Part shown: positions 3,033-20,541 of the stretch, piece by piece
Position numbering within the stretch: position 1 is the stretch's first letter
Layout of the letters: each line of letters opens with the position of its first letter
Origin: a virus
Virus record (IMG/VR): IMGVR_UViG_3300025669_000198
Location: 1 to 23,244 of that record
Strand: one strand, 5' to 3'
Length of the DNA stretch: 23,244 nucleotides
The notes under the pieces: generated by a model
What the model was told of the DNA's origin: nothing
Databases searched by the model: none
What the model saw: only the letters and a program-made list of their open reading frames with translations
Position numbers and translations under genes: made by a program

Positions 3033-3462
3033 AATCATCGCCTCCTGTAAACGTATGATCCGACGGATACGTTGCATCTTTGAACCCGTTCTCGGTCAGA
3101 TTGCACGCTCTTAAATATTCCCGCGCTTTTTCAGATACGCTATCCACACTGCGCAAATCGCCTTTACCTCCTGAACTGCTGTACTTCCCAACAGAAAAGC
3201 CTTCGTTATAGTCCGCACTGGACATGTCTGCTGGATTGTATCCTAGCCCTTTGATGTAATCGACCTGCGCTGCTGTTGCGTACTCTAAGCATTCTACTTC
3301 GTCGTCCGTCATTTCGCTTTTGTAATTGGCGCGCTGGAATGTTATCTTATCCATCACGCGGCTCGCCACAGCAATCGCCGTGTCCAGCTCATCGTCATCT
3401 GTAATAGCATTAATGAACGGATACGCTCTATAAAAAGCCTTTGTAATATAATCGTCAAACAT
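3025..3462 (-). CDS. Head-tail connector protein (gp6-like adaptor)
   Basis: A 145-residue acidic protein with ATG at 3462, preceded by AGGAGGTGAAAAGGA, ending with TAG at 3025. The first 75 residues are predicted helical (MFDDYITKAFYRAYPFINAI through ECLEYATAAQVDYIKGLGY) and are followed by a glycine/serine segment (GKYSSSGGKG). This architecture is typical of the small alpha-helical adaptors (HK97 gp6/SPP1 gp15-like) that dock under the portal. It is the first of the four neck genes. Its use of a TAG stop in a tightly packed operon shows that TAG acts as a true stop in this genome. Confidence 0.75.
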   Translation of the reverse strand: MFDDYITKAFYRAYPFINAITDDDELDTAIAVASRVMDKITFQRANYKSEMTDDEVECLEYATAAQVDYIKGLGYNPADMSSADYNEGFSVGKYSSSGGKGDLRSVDSVSEKAREYLRACNLTENGFKDATYPSDHTFTGGDDFE

Positions 3463-11445: not shown

Positions 11446-11474
11446 ACTATAGCCCTATTATGTGTAAATGTCAA
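11446..11474 (-). promoter_or_regulatory. Sigma-70-type promoter in front of the terminase/late operon
   Basis: On the minus strand, TTGACA (11469-11474) and TATAGT (11446-11451) are separated by exactly 17 bases. The -35 box overlaps the stop codon of the HNH-like gene. The expected start lies close to the ribosome binding site of the small terminase, giving a very short leader. The match to a host vegetative promoter is strong, and no other comparable site was found ahead of the late genes. Confidence 0.75.
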
Positions 11475-11845
11475 TCTTTTATCCACCACTTATCTTTCTG
11501 TATGCTCGGCAAACCCAATACTTGGCTAGAAGGTTTACCTGCTTTAAGTCTTTTATAAGCACTATTATAGTTTATTTTTAAATCATAGCACCATTCAAGC
11601 AATAGTTTAGTCTTACCGTTATATGATGCATAGACATTATTACTTCGCCGTTTTCGGTTGTGCATCATCTCTTGCCAAAGACATCCGCAACTCTTCGTAT
11701 TGCCGGAGCTTAAATTAGCACCAACAACAACAATCTTTTTACCGCAATCGCATAAACAATTCCATGTTGCATCTCCGTGCGTATTTATGCCCGCACAATC
11801 ACCCGCTGTTAGCCGCCCAAACTTCTTTCCTTTTAAATCATTCAT
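11471..11845 (-). CDS. HNH-homing-endonuclease-like DNA-binding protein lacking a visible HNH core
   Basis: The start is ATG 11845 (MNDLKGKKFGRLTAGDCAGI), after AAAGGAAG; a longer ATG at 11884 has no ribosome binding site. About 124 residues. The N-terminal LKGKKFGRL and WNCLCDCGKKIVVVGANLSS followed by GNTKSCGCL are the zinc-binding recognition module of many phage HNH endonucleases (CxC-x-G ... CGC). The C-terminus LLEWCYDLKINYNSAYKRLK is the small helix-turn-helix seen at the end of these proteins. The H-N-H catalytic residues are not visible between them, so the protein may be a degenerate or DNA-binding-only derivative. It stands beside the terminase genes, a common site for free-standing homing genes. 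Confidence 0.65.
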   Translation of the reverse strand: MNDLKGKKFGRLTAGDCAGINTHGDATWNCLCDCGKKIVVVGANLSSGNTKSCGCLWQEMMHNRKRRSNNVYASYNGKTKLLLEWCYDLKINYNSAYKRLKAGKPSSQVLGLPSIQKDKWWIKD

Positions 11846-11884
11846 ATCTATACTTCCTTTCGATAAGTTTTGTCCACTATACAT

Positions 11885-14050: not shown

Positions 14051-14797
14051 TTATAAATCAAATCTTATCTGCTGGTCTTCTTCTAACCTTTTCCGTTTTT
14101 TTGTTTCACTTATTTTTCTTTTAGTTTCCTCTGATCTTGGTTTGCCATAATTGGGATTTTTTTCACCTTTTTTTAATTCGCTTATTTTTCTTTTAGTTTC
14201 ACTAGAATGCTTCATCCCTTTATGTGCTTCGCTTATTTTCTTTTTAGTTTCTTCTGAATGAACATATCCTTTACGTGATTCAATTATTTTTTGTATTGTT
14301 TCTTTTGAATGTTTAAATCCAAGTGAATACTTGTTACCCTTGCCAGCTTCGCTTACTTTCTTTTTAGTCTCTTCTGAATGTTTAAATCCCAACGCATATT
14401 GGTTTCCAATTTTTCCTATGCTCATTTTTCTTTTTGACTCTTCGGTATGGTGATATCCTATTTTTGATTTACGTATTTTTTCTCTTGTTTCTTTACTTCG
14501 TATAACTCCTAAGCAACTTTCAGCCTTTGAATTAATATTATATTCTGGGTTTAAATCATCTATATATTTTTGTTCACATGGAATACAATCTTTTGGATTT
14601 TTTACAATTTCAAGTATAGAAAACTCGAACTCCGATTCACCATATTTATTATAAGCGTTTTGTAGGTGCTTGTTTACATGTTTGTTGTTCCGTAATTTAT
14701 ATAAATGTTGATTTTTCCGTAACCTAAAGCCGCGTGCAGTACTGCCTACATAAATTTTATTATTAAATTTTATTTGGTATACGCCGATATTTTTCAT
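14051..14797 (-). CDS. GIY-YIG homing endonuclease with NUMOD3 repeats
   Basis: A 248-residue protein, ATG 14797 after CGGAGGTG. Residues 1-95 are the catalytic GIY-YIG domain: GVY at 5-7, YVGST at 16-20, R25, H31, AYNKYGESEFEF, and E75 in CEQKYID, followed by NPEYNIN. Residues about 97-240 hold seven tandem NUMOD3-type DNA-binding repeats (S-x-E-T-K-x-K-I-S-E followed by KG), as in phage SegB/I-Bmo-like enzymes. It cuts a specific DNA site to spread its own gene. It has its own promoter and structured leader and lies between the helicase gene and the small-gene cluster. The C-terminal residues QQIRFDL resemble the end of the methyltransferase at 19362. Confidence 0.9.
   Translation of the reverse strand: MKNIGVYQIKFNNKIYVGSTARGFRLRKNQHLYKLRNNKHVNKHLQNAYNKYGESEFEFSILEIVKNPKDCIPCEQKYIDDLNPEYNINSKAESCLGVIRSKETREKIRKSKIGYHHTEESKRKMSIGKIGNQYALGFKHSEETKKKVSEAGKGNKYSLGFKHSKETIQKIIESRKGYVHSEETKKKISEAHKGMKHSSETKRKISELKKGEKNPNYGKPRSEETKRKISETKKRKRLEEDQQIRFDL
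14075..14510 (-). repeat. Seven degenerate in-gene NUMOD3 repeats
   Basis: The 3' half of the GIY-YIG gene contains repeated DNA units, seen on the plus strand as recurring (g)cttatttttcttttagttt-type words. They encode S-E-E-T-K-K-K-I-S-E blocks separated by glycine-rich linkers of variable length. They are coding modules, not a CRISPR array. Confidence 0.75.
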
Positions 14798-14927: not shown

Positions 14928-17900
14928 TCACCATGTAGAATTACTCGCACTATCTAAAAGTATAAGACTCTCCCGGGCTCGCGTATACGCCACATACTTC
15001 AACCGCGCCATTGCGTCGTGCCCTGCTATGCTTTGGCTTGCTTCAATATATCCGGCATACGACAAATCAGGCGCCACATAAACCACGTCTCCTTCGCCGC
15101 CTTTGACAGAATTATGCACAACTATCCCTCCGCTTACATAATAATTATAAGGCGGCACGTCCAGCCCAAAAACACTACCCACAAAAGGTTCTGTTGTGAT
15201 AATCGCTTGAATTGGTATCGGCGCGAATCTTTCGCGGCTGCCATCTATAAAATCTTTTGATACTACAGGAATATCTATAAATCCATTTAGCGAAACAAGA
15301 TTAGCGGCTATTGTTGTAAACCATCCTCGCATATTTTTCTTTGCTGTTTCCCCTTCTTCTCTTTTTCCGTAATGCCCTACTCCAGAATTTAAAGATCGCG
15401 TCCATAGCGGAATTTCTATATCAAGCCCTAAATTGTTTAAAAGAGTTTTAGCATGTATCCCTGATACTGGCTTTAATGCTTCATGAATTTCTTCCAATCC
15501 ATTCGTTGAAAAAGTACGTCCATTACAATTAGCTGTAAACGTTAAGCCTGTTAATCCGTAAGTACTTTGTATTATTGCTTCTTTTTTTAATGCTTCTTCG
15601 CGGCTGCTACAAACTCCTAACACCCATCCGCAATCAGCTGCCTCAGTTGCAAGTCTTCCACCCAATCCACCCGACCGATAAGGTCTATGTCCAGATATAC
15701 AGATTCCCACTCGCCACCAATCACCTTTTCGCATAAGATAAACAATCCATTTAGAATCAAAGAATTTATCGTTAAACTTAACAACCATTTTATGATTTAG
15801 GGTTACTCGTGTTTTCGTTGATTCCGTCTTAAAAACAACAAGATTTCCTTTAAAATACTGCACACTTTTCTCAAAAGCAAATCCTTCATTTCCCTTTTTC
15901 TTAGATCCCCAAGTCATGCGATTTGTGCGTCTGTGATGCCCGGCTAATCTGTGCTTTAAAGGATTAAGTTCTTTCATCGGAATCCATCCATCGGTTGTCA
16001 AGATAGGCTCATCGGCAGGGGAGCAATGAATCGTGCCAATTACTACCTTTGGTTTTTCGCGCAACGGCTCAATTCCATGCTTTAAAACAATCGACGATGG
16101 ATACTTCAACGCTTTAGATTTAGCCTCGGTTACGTTTTGCCCGAACCATTCAATCGCTGGATTAAGCATATCAGCGAACCCAAAATAATCATGCATACCA
16201 CTCCTACTATCGAACAACTCCGACACCTCAGATAATCCGATAAACGCGGTTTCTTGCAGCTTGGCAATATTAACAGCTTTCATCTTAGATGGGATGTTGC
16301 CTTGCGCTTTTAATATCTCATACCATTTCAAAAACTCTTCAACATCAAGCACCGGCTCAAAATCGGTATCATCCATGCCGTATTTATGCGGCACTTGGTC
16401 CGCAAACGCCAGCAACCTATCAACCGTGCCCGACCTTAACGGATTCCATGCGCCGTTCTTTGTCCTGTACGGGTTATGAAACGGTATGCCTTCAACTCTT
16501 AACGCTTTGATAATTGATTGCAGCATATAAGAGCACGATGCAAGTATCATAATGCGCTTACCTTTGTACTGCTCCATATCGCGTATAATCATCTCCGGCG
16601 TGTTGAAGTTAACACCATGCAACAACCGTACCTCGCCGTCACAATCACGCGGCTGGTATATCTTAGGCTCGCGCTTTTTTACCGTCAATATAACCTTCTG
16701 CGCCAGCGCATGCACCGCGCGCGGCACTCTAAAGGATTGCTGCAACACAACCTTTTTCGCGGGTTCGCCTTCAAGCATAACACCAGGACGCGCCCCAGCC
16801 CATTCATAAATACAATTATGAGTAATGATACCATCTGCAATATATGAATGATATTTCTCAACGTCAAGAGAATAAACGGTTTCATTTCTTACAGTCCGGG
16901 ATTTCATTGTAAAGGCTGACCACTGTATTCGCCTATTCAGTTTTTCATAATCCGGTAGTGGCAACAACATTAAATCAGGCAATAAATTGCATGTTCTATG
17001 AATATAAATACTTGCACCACCTCGGCTTATGCCGTCTTTTTCCCAAAAAGGATATATATAAACTCGTCCGTATTCTTCAAATACACACATATCTATAGCA
17101 TTACCAGTAGAATTCCACTTATCCCAAAACCGCGCTATAACGCTTGATGTATAAAGCCCATTTTCCATAGAAGCTTTGAACATTATAGTTGGTATTCCGT
17201 ACTTTGCAGCAATGTATGTTTCCATTATTGACGCTTCTGCTTTATCATCTGTAGTCAATAATATCCATGCTTTCTCAGCACCCTCCAATCGCGCTCTTGC
17301 GCCTAAATGAAAAACTCCGTCTACGCGCATAATCTGGCACCATCCGACCCTGAAACATTCGCGAGCATTAATAACCTTGCTCATAACATAAACGCAATAT
17401 TGGTTTATTGCTTTAGATTTATTCCATTTTGCAAACCATTTATGATTGGACGTTGCCTGCGTCGTTTTTTTATTAGCAGTTACAGAATACATATTGCCTG
17501 TATATATTCTTGATGATATTGCTTTTATTCTGCCTGTTTTATATACAGCAGAATCACGCCTCGCATACGCAAAAGCTATGTTTCCTGCATGTAAATTTTC
17601 AATAGATACTTTTCCTTTTATTGTATCAATCATTGTTCCGGCTGGCTGACACTGGTCGTCATCTCCTGCCATCAGAATATAATCAAGCGCCTTGCCCCAT
17701 TTGCGTATCAACGCCATCGACAACGGCGTTTCGTCCTGTGCTTCATCAAAGAACCCAACCGACGGATTTCCCGGCGGCGCGTCGATATCACGATACGGTA
17801 TTTCTATCATATCAGTATAATCAATAATGCTGTGCTTAGCTTTCCACCTATCCCATTTATCCGCAAACGCGCGTCCCTGCATCCGCCAATGTTCACGCGG

Positions 17901-18293
17901 AATCATCAACGCACGTTGCATCTGCATATAATTGAATAACTCATCGCCTAGTGTTTCAACCTTGCCGCCTTCATTCGTCTCGTCAACATCTGACTGCTTA
18001 CCGCCCGTCAGTGCATAAATCGGATAATCCTCGTTCCACGATGGCAAACAGTTCTCAGCAATCTTTAACGAACGCCCTAAAGCGCGGTATCCGTGCGCAT
18101 GTAACGTGCCGATGTTCTCAACGTTTGTATTACGTCCGCCGACCTCATGCGCTGCCGCACGGGTGAAACTAGCCACGAACAATTTATCCGCGCCGTGCTT
18201 CTCCGCTGCTGTTTGAATCGCGGTTGTAAGATACGTCGTTTTTCCGGTTCCCGACTAAGGCGAGCCGAAAACTCTATATTCTACGGCTTGCAT
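14928..18293 (-). CDS. UvrD/Rep-like SF1 helicase with two inteins and an in-frame TAG in Walker A
   Basis: The natural start is ATG 18293, after AAGGTGGTG and inside the end of the methyltransferase gene. It reads MQAVEYRVFGSP, then TAG (18255-18257), then SGTGKTTYLTTAIQ. The frame then runs open to TGA 14928. The open part alone could only start at TTG 18182, which lacks a ribosome binding site and would remove the P-loop. Counting codons from ATG 18293, helicase motifs are Ia SFTRAA (42), GTLHAHG (62), II FFDEAQD (to 187), III GDDDQ plus CIYEWAGA (210-214 and 494), IV QQSFRVP (518), V TIH plus SVKGGEGD (754-756 and 1062) and VI YTRARE (1103). Removal of both inteins leaves about 536 residues, normal for this family. 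The TAG makes full-length product uncertain; TAG serves as a normal stop in other genes here. Confidence 0.85.
15111..16025 (-). mobile_element. Intein 2 in helicase motif V (305 residues)
   Basis: The insertion splits TIH and SVKGGEGD of motif V. It begins with Cys (CSPADEPILTTDGWIPMKEL, block A), has TLNHKMVVKF (block B, T-x-x-H) and ends with VFGLDVPPYNYYVSGGIVVH then Asn; the following extein residue is Ser. These are all the residues needed for standard class 1 protein splicing. The central part, about 170 residues, has no visible LAGLIDADG or HNH motif. It contains a module (RVGICISG to TYGLTGLTF, 15537-15713) that also occurs in intein 1. Confidence 0.9.
16815..17651 (-). mobile_element. 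Intein 1 in helicase motif III (279 residues)
   Basis: The insertion splits GDDDQ and CIYEWAGA. It starts CQPAGTMIDTIKGKVSIENL (block A), carries ATSNHKWFAKW (block B) and ends VYSLDVEKYHSYIADGIITH then Asn; the next extein residue is Cys. Nucleophiles Cys1, His-Asn and Cys+1 are present, so splicing should be possible. The middle has no LAGLIDADG or HNH motif. It holds the module RVGWCQIM to KYGIPTIMF (17178-17351), which is similar to the one in intein 2. Confidence 0.9.
18252..18257 (-). other. Six-base in-frame insertion TAGTCG in the Walker A codons (inferred)
   Basis: The gene reads GGC TCG CCT TAG TCG GGA ACC GGA AAA ACG. Removing TAG TCG restores GSPGTGKT, the normal P-loop with correct spacing, so these two codons look like an insertion. 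It breaks the helicase frame at its most conserved motif. That it is an insertion rather than a substitution is inferred from P-loop spacing. Confidence 0.6.
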
Positions 18294-19090
18294 TTGGCAT
18301 CACCACCTTTTATCTCAATTTGTCTCGAATTATTTTTCTTTTCAACATTAAAGATTGTTGTTTGTACATTCTTTGCTATCTTTTCATTAAACCCTTCTAT
18401 GTAATCTTTTTTGATTTCAAAGCCATATGATTTTCTTCCTAATTCTTCTGCTGCTAATAATGTTACACCGCTACCAGCGACAGGGTCAATCACAACATCG
18501 CCCACGTCTGTAAATGTTGATATTAATTTTTTCAAAACGTATATACTTTTCTGTGTTGGATGTATCTTCGGCGTTTTATTATCTCTTTGATAATCAATAC
18601 AATTAAAAACCATTTTACCGTTGTTGTTAAACTTAGGTAATTTATCTCTGTATAATAGCACAGCATATTCGCAGTTTCCGACAACTCTCATATTTGCTTT
18701 TAAGACTTGTGCTGAATAATTCTTACGAAATACAAGATTGATATAGTTCGGAAACCCGTATTTTTTACCGTAATCTATTAACATAAACTGTTGTTCAAAC
18801 TCGCAAAAAACAATCATGCATCCTGCTTTACCTTTTTCCTTTGGTTCTTTCTTAAGCATTGTGTTTACAAAGTGCATAAATTCCGCAACCCTGAAATCGC
18901 TATCAGTATCAAAAAAACTTTTCTTTGCTAGTTTGCTTTCTCCGTTTTTGTTATCACCGTCTTTATACCAACTCGGACTCGACGCATACGCGTTGATACC
19001 TATGTTGTACGGGATATCAGCGATTATCAACTGCGCTTTTGGAATAGCATATTTTTTATAGTTTTGAAAATGGTCTCTATATAATTTCAT
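18281..19090 (-). CDS. DNA methyltransferase (N6-adenine/N4-cytosine type, DIPY variant)
   Basis: A 269-residue protein; the ATG at 19090 overlaps the stop of the DUF4406 gene (ATGA). The catalytic motif IV is IIADIPYNIGINAY (residues about 22-35), where DPPY is replaced by DIPY. The AdoMet site is VVIDPVAGSGVTLLAAEELG near residues 200-219, with KIHPTQKSIYVLKKL before it, giving the beta-class order. It should methylate an amino group in a specific DNA sequence. No restriction enzyme partner was found, so it is probably an orphan enzyme protecting phage DNA or regulating it. It ends TAG at 18281, with the helicase start embedded in its last codons. Confidence 0.85.
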   Translation of the reverse strand: MKLYRDHFQNYKKYAIPKAQLIIADIPYNIGINAYASSPSWYKDGDNKNGESKLAKKSFFDTDSDFRVAEFMHFVNTMLKKEPKEKGKAGCMIVFCEFEQQFMLIDYGKKYGFPNYINLVFRKNYSAQVLKANMRVVGNCEYAVLLYRDKLPKFNNNGKMVFNCIDYQRDNKTPKIHPTQKSIYVLKKLISTFTDVGDVVIDPVAGSGVTLLAAEELGRKSYGFEIKKDYIEGFNEKIAKNVQTTIFNVEKKNNSRQIEIKGGDAKCKP

Positions 19091-19365: not shown

Positions 19366-19970
19366 AAATCAAACCTCTGTTGTGCTTTGTGGTTGTTGAT
19401 ACGCTCCATTGCTGCTTTGTAATAATCTTTGTCTAACTCAAAAGCCATGTACTCAAAGCCCATGTTGTGGCAAGCTATGATTGATGAACCACTGCCCGTG
19501 TGTGTGTCTAGTATCTTGTCACCCTCTTTGGCGTAGTTTCTTAGAAGCCAATGATATAGCTCTACGGGTTTTTGTGTTGGGTGGATTTTTCCTCTTTCTT
19601 TCAACACCGAAAAGCTAAACATCTTTATTGGTTTTTGTATACTGCACCACGCCAATTCACACATCGCTAGACTGAAGTCGTGCGGTTGCCTCTTATCCCA
19701 TACAATATAATTTTGAGTTGGTGGTAAATCATAATAATTACCACCCCATATTATCTGGTCTTTACTGACTCTTTTTAATTCTTCAAAGTATTCTTTATCT
19801 GGTACAGCGTTATCCCACTTCTTTTTTTGGTGTGCTTGTCTAACTGGATTTTTGCTTATTCCTATCCCATACGGCGGGTCTACTATGCAAAGGTCTGCGA
19901 AGTTATCGGGCATCTGTCTTAATGCTATCATGCAATCTTCGTCATAGATGTTGTTCCATTTATATTTCAT
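19362..19970 (-). CDS. DNA methyltransferase (DPPYG type)
   Basis: The preferred start is ATG 19970 (MKYKWNNIYDEDCMIALRQM), 9 bases after GGAG; a further ATG at 19985 has poorer spacing. About 202 residues. Motif IV CIVDPPYGIG is at residues 28-37, then KIHPTQKPVELYHWLL, then the AdoMet site KILDTHTGSGSSIIACHNMG, in beta-class order. It is a compact N6-adenine or N4-cytosine methyltransferase without a visible target-recognition domain beyond the middle segment. Upstream, a broken N-terminus of a second methyltransferase of the same kind is found (20538-20669). Confidence 0.88.
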   Translation of the reverse strand: MKYKWNNIYDEDCMIALRQMPDNFADLCIVDPPYGIGISKNPVRQAHQKKKWDNAVPDKEYFEELKRVSKDQIIWGGNYYDLPPTQNYIVWDKRQPHDFSLAMCELAWCSIQKPIKMFSFSVLKERGKIHPTQKPVELYHWLLRNYAKEGDKILDTHTGSGSSIIACHNMGFEYMAFELDKDYYKAAMERINNHKAQQRFDL

Positions 19971-20541
19971 AAAACCATTCTCCATTCCTTATTATGTCTG
20001 AAAAGTATTTAGCGTTTGTTTTGTATGGTTTATAATTGGTTTTTAACATTCTGCTTACTGTTGTATTTGATATACCTAATTGACGCCCAATTGCAAGCTG
20101 TGTCATCTCTCCGCTTAACGCTATAACATTTTTGTAATCTTGCATTCCTTTTTCATCGTAATAAGTATTCTTTAGTTTATCAACTCGAAGATTTATGGTA
20201 TCAGGCATATCAACGTTTTTTATATATCCTACTTGCATAGTATCTAATGTAACTAAAGCAAACATGTCAACTTCATTCTTTGTATATCTAGTTGTGTTGT
20301 TCTTCCCATGCCTTTTAATATTAAATATGTATGCGTAGCTTTCTTTTTGTCTCTGTGGTATTTTTTTATATTTGCTTGTTGTCTTAACCTGTATCCTTAA
20401 TAGATTATTGCCAGTATCAATAACAACATCATATGGAAGCCCTTGCTCACTTGGATATGCGACAAAACCTTTTAATATTAAATCTGCACATACAAGATAT
20501 TCGCCCGCTTTTCCAATCTGCATCATATCGCTTATTTTCAT
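19960..20541 (-). CDS. PD-(D/E)XK homing-endonuclease-like protein (I-Ssp6803I-type) with HTH
   Basis: A 193-residue protein, ATG 20541 after AGAGGTGGG. The N-terminal domain shows GKAGEYLVCADLILKGFVAY (with E14), PYDVVID (D38) and LLRIQVKTT (Q51-V-K53). This is the D ... Q-x-K active site of the group I intron homing enzyme I-Ssp6803I and the PDDEXK_5 family. A second conserved segment VDMFALVTLDTMQVGYI follows. Residues 141-167 (LSGEMTQLAIGRQLGISNTT, VSRMLKT) are a helix-turn-helix. Its own promoter lies inside the broken methyltransferase gene. A role as a free-standing homing nuclease is likely; a different nuclease role cannot be excluded. Confidence 0.75.
   Translation of the reverse strand: MKISDMMQIGKAGEYLVCADLILKGFVAYPSEQGLPYDVVIDTGNNLLRIQVKTTSKYKKIPQRQKESYAYIFNIKRHGKNNTTRYTKNEVDMFALVTLDTMQVGYIKNVDMPDTINLRVDKLKNTYYDEKGMQDYKNVIALSGEMTQLAIGRQLGISNTTVSRMLKTNYKPYKTNAKYFSDIIRNGEWFYEI

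Follow-up and report, generated by a model that had tools for sequence, protein, structure and literature searches.

Efficient bypassing by ribosomes in phages is so far firmly known essentially from one gene, gene 60 of phage T4, whose gap, as Bonocora and colleagues are said to have described in 2011, forms a mobile cassette together with mobA. A 5' stem-loop that re-forms is thought to be the motor of bypassing in gene 60 (PMC5009743). In synthetic stop-hops, matched codons placed around a stop allowed a +6 hop (Weiss et al., 1987; PMC5009743), and a 2016 review stated that no natural in-frame stop hopping was known (PMC5009743).

Here we describe a helicase gene of an environmental virus in which UAG UCG is very probably a programmed translational bypass (a +6 stop-hop) within a mobile cassette like that of T4 mobA and gene 60. 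The case is sequence-based, and it is made from the stop, the variable gap length, a codon rule, a hairpin, endonuclease linkage, the scattered distribution of the gap, and purifying selection. We found no report of this element in the open-access literature.

The helicase gene and its in-frame stop

The window, i.e., the whole stretch of DNA analysed, is a complete IMG/VR virus record of 23,244 bases. Its minus strand carries a gene for a UvrD/PcrA-like superfamily 1 helicase (14928..18293; PF00580, PF13245, PF14890) that is interrupted by a short gap and two inteins. The original prediction had placed an in-frame TAG and an extra TCG inside the Walker A motif of a helicase starting at ATG 18293, in a frame otherwise intact and containing two inteins, and both points are confirmed: the frame runs from ATG 18293 to TGA 14928 and is open downstream of the gap. 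The codons read ...GTT TTC GGC TCG CCT TAG TCG GGA ACC GGA AAA ACG ACG, with GGC TCG CCT TAG TCG GGA ACC as codons 10–16, and Walker A is thus GSP*SGTGKT, TAG (18257-18255) and TCG (18254-18252) lying within VFGSP[*S]GTGKTT. In terms of a hop, the take-off codon, assigned from the alignment with relatives, would be CCU (Pro 12; 18258..18260, minus strand), followed by the in-frame stop UAG as the first codon of the 6-nt gap (18255..18257, minus strand), by a putative landing codon UCG assigned from relatives, which could pair with tRNAPro via one G.U (18252..18254, minus strand), and by the resume codon GGA, the Gly of GTGKTT (18249..18251, minus strand).

Intein 1 (279 aa, GDDDQ^C...HN^CIYEW; 16815..17651, minus strand) was recognized by sequence and domain matches, and intein 2 (305 aa, GTIH^C...HN^SVKGG; 15111..16025, minus strand) by sequence. 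Skipping TAG TCG and taking both inteins out yields a predicted mature helicase of 535 aa with a normal GSPGTGKT; the earlier count of 536 residues was one too high. Across this helicase family (window, L191, and L195) inteins interrupt motif III (GDDDQ^C) and motif V (GT[IV]H^C), and L195 has one in motif II (DE^C); one gene therefore hosts both inteins and hop gaps. The nearest relative (L002, 61% identity) is without inteins and reads GGA TCG CCA GGA ACC GGA, with no insert.

General recoding of TAG had been thought unlikely, and we agree: TAG terminates 6 of the 35 window genes and is therefore a normal stop here, and no tRNA genes, including any for a suppressor tRNA, are present in the window. 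Since relatives also use TAA or TGA, TAG reassignment or suppression was rejected. Also rejected was a hop that would start at the Ser codon UCG and land on the window's second UCG, because the proline would be lost.

Recurrence, gap lengths, and landing codons

About 30 distinct phage UvrD-like helicases in IMG/VR have a stop inside Walker A. For example, L056, a homologue at only 28% identity, shares the in-frame TAG, down to the codon. When IMG/VR was scanned for TAG at that place, 11 contigs were returned, all of them in-frame phage helicases, and an insert-agnostic scan, in which any six bases were permitted between CCN and GGN, returned 37 contigs, 36 of which are helicases. In every one of these 36 the first insert codon is a stop (TAG, TAA or TGA), CTN or CCN comes next, and the sole stop-free contig is not a helicase. 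The recurrence of an in-frame stop at one position is far beyond chance, and the only thing conserved at the insert position is being a stop.

Recurrence in about 30 distinct sequences rules out an assembly error, and the same stop position in relatives contradicts the earlier suggestion of a very recent event. Nor is there support for a P-loop simply broken by an insertion, as had been supposed, given that the stop is recurrent, can be any of the three stops, and comes with a hairpin and often an HNH gene. The comparison with relatives at GSPGTGKT that the original prediction had called for, in search of a normal sense codon pair, found none: at this position relatives either lack an insert or carry a stop.

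The first P-loop-pattern searches were biased to intact P-loops, and scans independent of the P-loop were therefore added; these found a gap in 3 of 76 readable A2 loci and 7 of about 77 A3 loci, most homologues being intact. The gap sequences all come from metagenomic contigs (L365, with an N and a frameshift, was left out). No gap alleles were found among the cultured phages inspected, whose homologues are intact; of these, DSL-LC04 is the closest to the main clade.

The stop directly follows the take-off codon in every accepted gap allele, and the variable-gap scan, together with the P-loop-independent scans, revealed several gap lengths: 7 nt in L210 (CCG [TAAT CCT] GGT) and L337 (CCG [TGAC TCG] GGG), 8 nt in L211 (CCA [TGATG CCG] GGC), 4 and 6 nt at the preceding Gly codon in L306 (GGT [TGAC]) and L301 (GGT [TGAAGC]), respectively, and 10 nt after Thr in L304 (ACC [TGAAGGT GCC] GGA). 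Skipping the gap restores Walker A in each of these six. The lengths bear directly on stop-codon read-through, which had also been suggested and in which a tRNA would decode the stop and the P-loop would gain two residues (X-S, X-L or X-P). The 6-nt gap of the window and most relatives is in frame and would suit it; however, the gaps of 4, 7, 8, and 10 nt in several relatives are out of frame, and read-through is therefore not a general answer. Moreover, all three stops are in use, the stop is never replaced by a sense codon, two added residues would break GxxxxGK[TS], and the window offers no suppressor tRNA, so that we regard read-through as highly improbable.

The last codon of the gap follows a rule that a hop would explain. 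All 30 tabulated Pro cases land on CCN, CUN or UCG, i.e., on codons that match the take-off codon in the first two positions save for one G.U at most, and in all 30 the third base, judged by the reading rules of the tRNAPro isoacceptors, is readable by an isoacceptor that also reads the take-off codon. Among CUN landings the third base is the same as that of the take-off codon in 14 of 19 (shuffle mean 7.2, p 0.0002; rows not fully independent). This codon rule is as expected if the same peptidyl-tRNA pairs again. The Gly take-off cases have landing codons that are near-cognate only (AGC, AGT, GAC or GGA). Termination is slow where a stop follows Pro-Pro, a context that would favour a hop.

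The landing codons also bear on re-initiation, in which the ribosome would stop at UAG and restart at the next codon to give a helicase without its first strand. An SD-like AAGGAG would come near the landing codon if the hairpin were looped out (counted by eye), and L211 has an overlapping TGATG. However, none of the landing codons CCA, CUA, CUU, and UCG is a start codon, the product would be missing beta strand 1 along with part of Walker A, and the upstream codons KVFGPP remain in frame with a start; re-initiation is therefore extremely improbable.

L209/L315 has a 13-nt gap with no matched landing codon (ACA in L209), and L304 has, near 3345, a second in-frame TGA at a conserved Trp, which could reflect decay or an error, or be a TGA decoded as Trp. 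A few copies may therefore be dead or decaying.

Hairpin, endonuclease linkage, and selection

Where an accepted gap allele has enough upstream sequence, it shows a stem-loop: the 3' arm is made of the V-F-G-P codons and stops a few bases at most from the take-off codon, and the 5' arm lies about 20–40 nt upstream, behind an SD-like AAGGAG. The stems average 10.7 bp in gap alleles (n = 28, z -4.2) vs. 5.0 bp in intact alleles (n = 213, z +0.2; Mann-Whitney p ~2e-16). Arm variants among members are compensatory (GGGCCGAAGA/UCUUCGGCCC, AGGGCCAAAGAU/AUCUUUGGCCCU, and CCCAAAAAACU/AGUUUUUGGG) in a table that was folded per sequence and thus leans to pairing. In the window, folding places the 5' arm AGCCGUAGA at 18280..18288 and the 3' arm UUUUCGGCU, the V-F-G-S codons, at 18263..18271 (both minus strand), ending 2 nt before the take-off codon, and the Shine-Dalgarno-like AGGUGGUG of the helicase (18301..18308, minus strand; cf. 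AAGGAG in relatives) lies just 5' of the hairpin. This hairpin (AGCCG-U-AGA/UUU-U-CGGCU, MFE -14.2, z -1.6) is present but weaker than in the main clade; its z-score, and the G.U that the landing codon UCG needs in position 1, are points against bypass in the window itself. A stem beside a TAG in L424 was dismissed as chance because it is out of frame.

A structured RNA beside a gap whose length is free in the family could also mark a site at which a ribozyme or enzyme excises the gap from the mRNA before translation. However, no known phage RNA splicing takes out 4–10 nt, no Rfam intron matches occur at the site, and a leading stop and a tRNA-matched last codon are expected of a ribosome event rather than RNA excision, all of which makes removal at the mRNA level most improbable. 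With no Rfam match and no large insert at the site, where the inserts are only 4–13 nt long, an intein or intron remnant was rejected as well. The six bases are not the scar of a lost mobile element, one of the explanations first offered.

The original prediction was right to place the six bases at a site that mobile elements favour. In 19 gap loci, representing about 11 distinct sequences, an HNH homing-endonuclease gene lies 160–470 nt upstream of the gap; of about 240 intact loci, none has one. In pairwise DNA alignments several gap alleles carry an insertion that ends just upstream of the P-loop, and in L231 and L180 this insertion encodes an HNH homing endonuclease. Upstream of about half of the gap alleles no endonuclease was recognised, and small unrelated ORFs or nothing lie there instead. 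A conserved small ORF (63–105 aa, e.g., MLKIDGHDNAIIGPAMVW...) lies between primase and helicase in four gap alleles without HNH (L176, L192, L194, and L200), and a similar ORF lies upstream of the helicase in L187 and L212.

An int-alpA RNA (RF02996) was found by Rfam directly 5' of the HNH gene in L231 (2425-2490), in L180 (8813-8878, minus strand), and in 10 of 10 further HNH loci, and it is absent from the three gap loci without HNH that were examined (3/3). This suggests that int-alpA RNA is a leader of endonuclease genes.

Further helicases with the same layout were found through a scan for the HNH: L387 (GPPG^TGKT, GGC [TGAATTG AGT] ACA) and three of SNF2 type, L389 (DPG^LGKS, GGC [TAATCCG AGC] TTG), L393 (DPG^LGKT, GGC [TGAACCA AGC] CTC), and L446 (DMGLG^KT, GGT [TAACTAC GGA] AAA). 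A stem of at least 13 bp ends at the take-off codon in L387, L389, and L393. Several HNH-linked helicases have intact P-loops, so that the endonuclease gene is not always accompanied by a gap.

In a tree of 224 helicases (FastTree on the 215 aa after the gap, with gap rows enriched by the search), gap and intact states are scattered, with 24 state changes for 30 gap rows (25–30 in shuffles), and the gap-bearing L231 is 100% identical to the intact L233 over these 215 aa. The scattered states and the L231/L233 identity support horizontal spread of the gap, and the scattered distribution together with the adjacent HNH gene suggests a mobile cassette made up of gap, hairpin, and endonuclease.

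In the window, a free-standing GIY-YIG/NUMOD3 homing endonuclease gene (14051..14797, minus strand; GC 0.30) directly downstream of the helicase is a candidate partner of the gap. The block between the primase-like gene and the helicase, absent from the relative L002, comprises a PD-(D/E)XK_5 endonuclease-like gene with a weak match to 2OST (19960..20541, minus strand; E 0.29), two methyltransferase genes, and a DUF4406 gene. The link of the window's gap to an endonuclease is circumstantial; these neighbours belong to families other than the HNH of relatives. The DNA methyltransferase gene whose stop overlaps the helicase start (18281..19090, minus strand) has about 70% DNA identity to Campylobacter, Lactococcus, and Fusobacterium phage genes and is AT-richer than the window's replication genes. 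A small protein encoded at 11471-11884 starts like an AP2/HNH-associated zinc protein (FGRLTAGDCAG...CLCDCGKK) and is perhaps a truncated endonuclease.

Linkage to homing-endonuclease genes and a scattered distribution would also be expected if the helicases were inactivated genes, in which an endonuclease cut was repaired with a small insert and the dead genes were kept as the endonuclease spreads; the few copies that look decayed (L304, L209) fit as well. However, downstream of the gap dN/dS is 0.02–0.2 over 460 codons in pairs of gap and intact or two gap alleles, and by this measure the gap-bearing helicases are under purifying selection there. Intact sister alleles without the gap exist. 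Most gap copies have no other disruption, and an in-frame start upstream of the gap is kept in 46 of 46 tabulated gap loci. The stop and landing-codon rule are maintained, as is a matched hairpin with compensatory changes. Inactivation is therefore very unlikely.

Proposed bypass and its relation to known systems

Taken together, the comparative evidence points strongly to ribosomes hopping over the stop, and so producing an intact helicase, in many unrelated environmental phages. We infer the hopping itself and its efficiency, the hairpin as its driver, and a resistance to cutting given by the gap. In the window, a ribosome on the helicase mRNA would arrive at CCU (Pro 12) as UAG occupies the A site, the peptidyl-tRNAPro would leave CCU while the mRNA slides by 6 nt, assisted by re-formation of the hairpin behind the ribosome, and the tRNA would re-pair with UCG through one G.U, so that reading would resume at GGA to give GSP-GTGKT, a normal Walker A. 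The gap would change the endonuclease target in the conserved P-loop, and bypass would keep the interrupted gene working. More generally, these are probably widespread phage mobile elements, in which an endonuclease gene, a leader RNA, and a hop signal travel together, settle in the Walker A codons of helicases, and make hopping a common rather than singular way to express important phage genes.

If this is true, about 30 natural sites with gaps of 4–10 nt, matched intact alleles, and compensatory hairpins would open bypassing to comparative study, and codon rules, hairpin requirements, and gap-length limits would become testable in ordinary reporters. It would also suggest a way for endonuclease genes to invade essential codons, link the int-alpA RNA family to a partner in the genome, and warn annotators that helicases of this kind are truncated or dropped by gene callers.

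Phage bypass has been proposed before, for the terminase of Streptomyces phage Hau3 (PMC5009743), a single case in which the A-site codon is UUA and not a stop. The byp elements of Magnusiomyces capitatus mitochondria resemble the present gaps in that many short in-gene gaps are skipped and imperfect codon matches are allowed (PMC5009743); however, they are mitochondrial and context-independent, whereas the gaps described here have an A-site stop, lie in phage genes, and are linked to endonucleases. Closer still are the stop-hops of Weiss et al. (1987), in which nine nucleotides likewise give one amino acid and the P-site tRNA re-pairs beyond the stop (PMC5009743), although those were constructs and these are natural phage genes. 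With T4 gene 60 and mobA the phage helicases share, in their layout, a stop right after the take-off codon, a matched landing codon, a 5' stem-loop, a short non-coding gap in a DNA-replication gene, and a linked HNH endonuclease gene (PMC5009743; PMC2988022). In contrast, the gap of gene 60 is 50 nt rather than 4–10 nt, and here the targets are the Walker A motifs of helicases, the take-off codon is Pro or Gly, and dozens of phages are involved.
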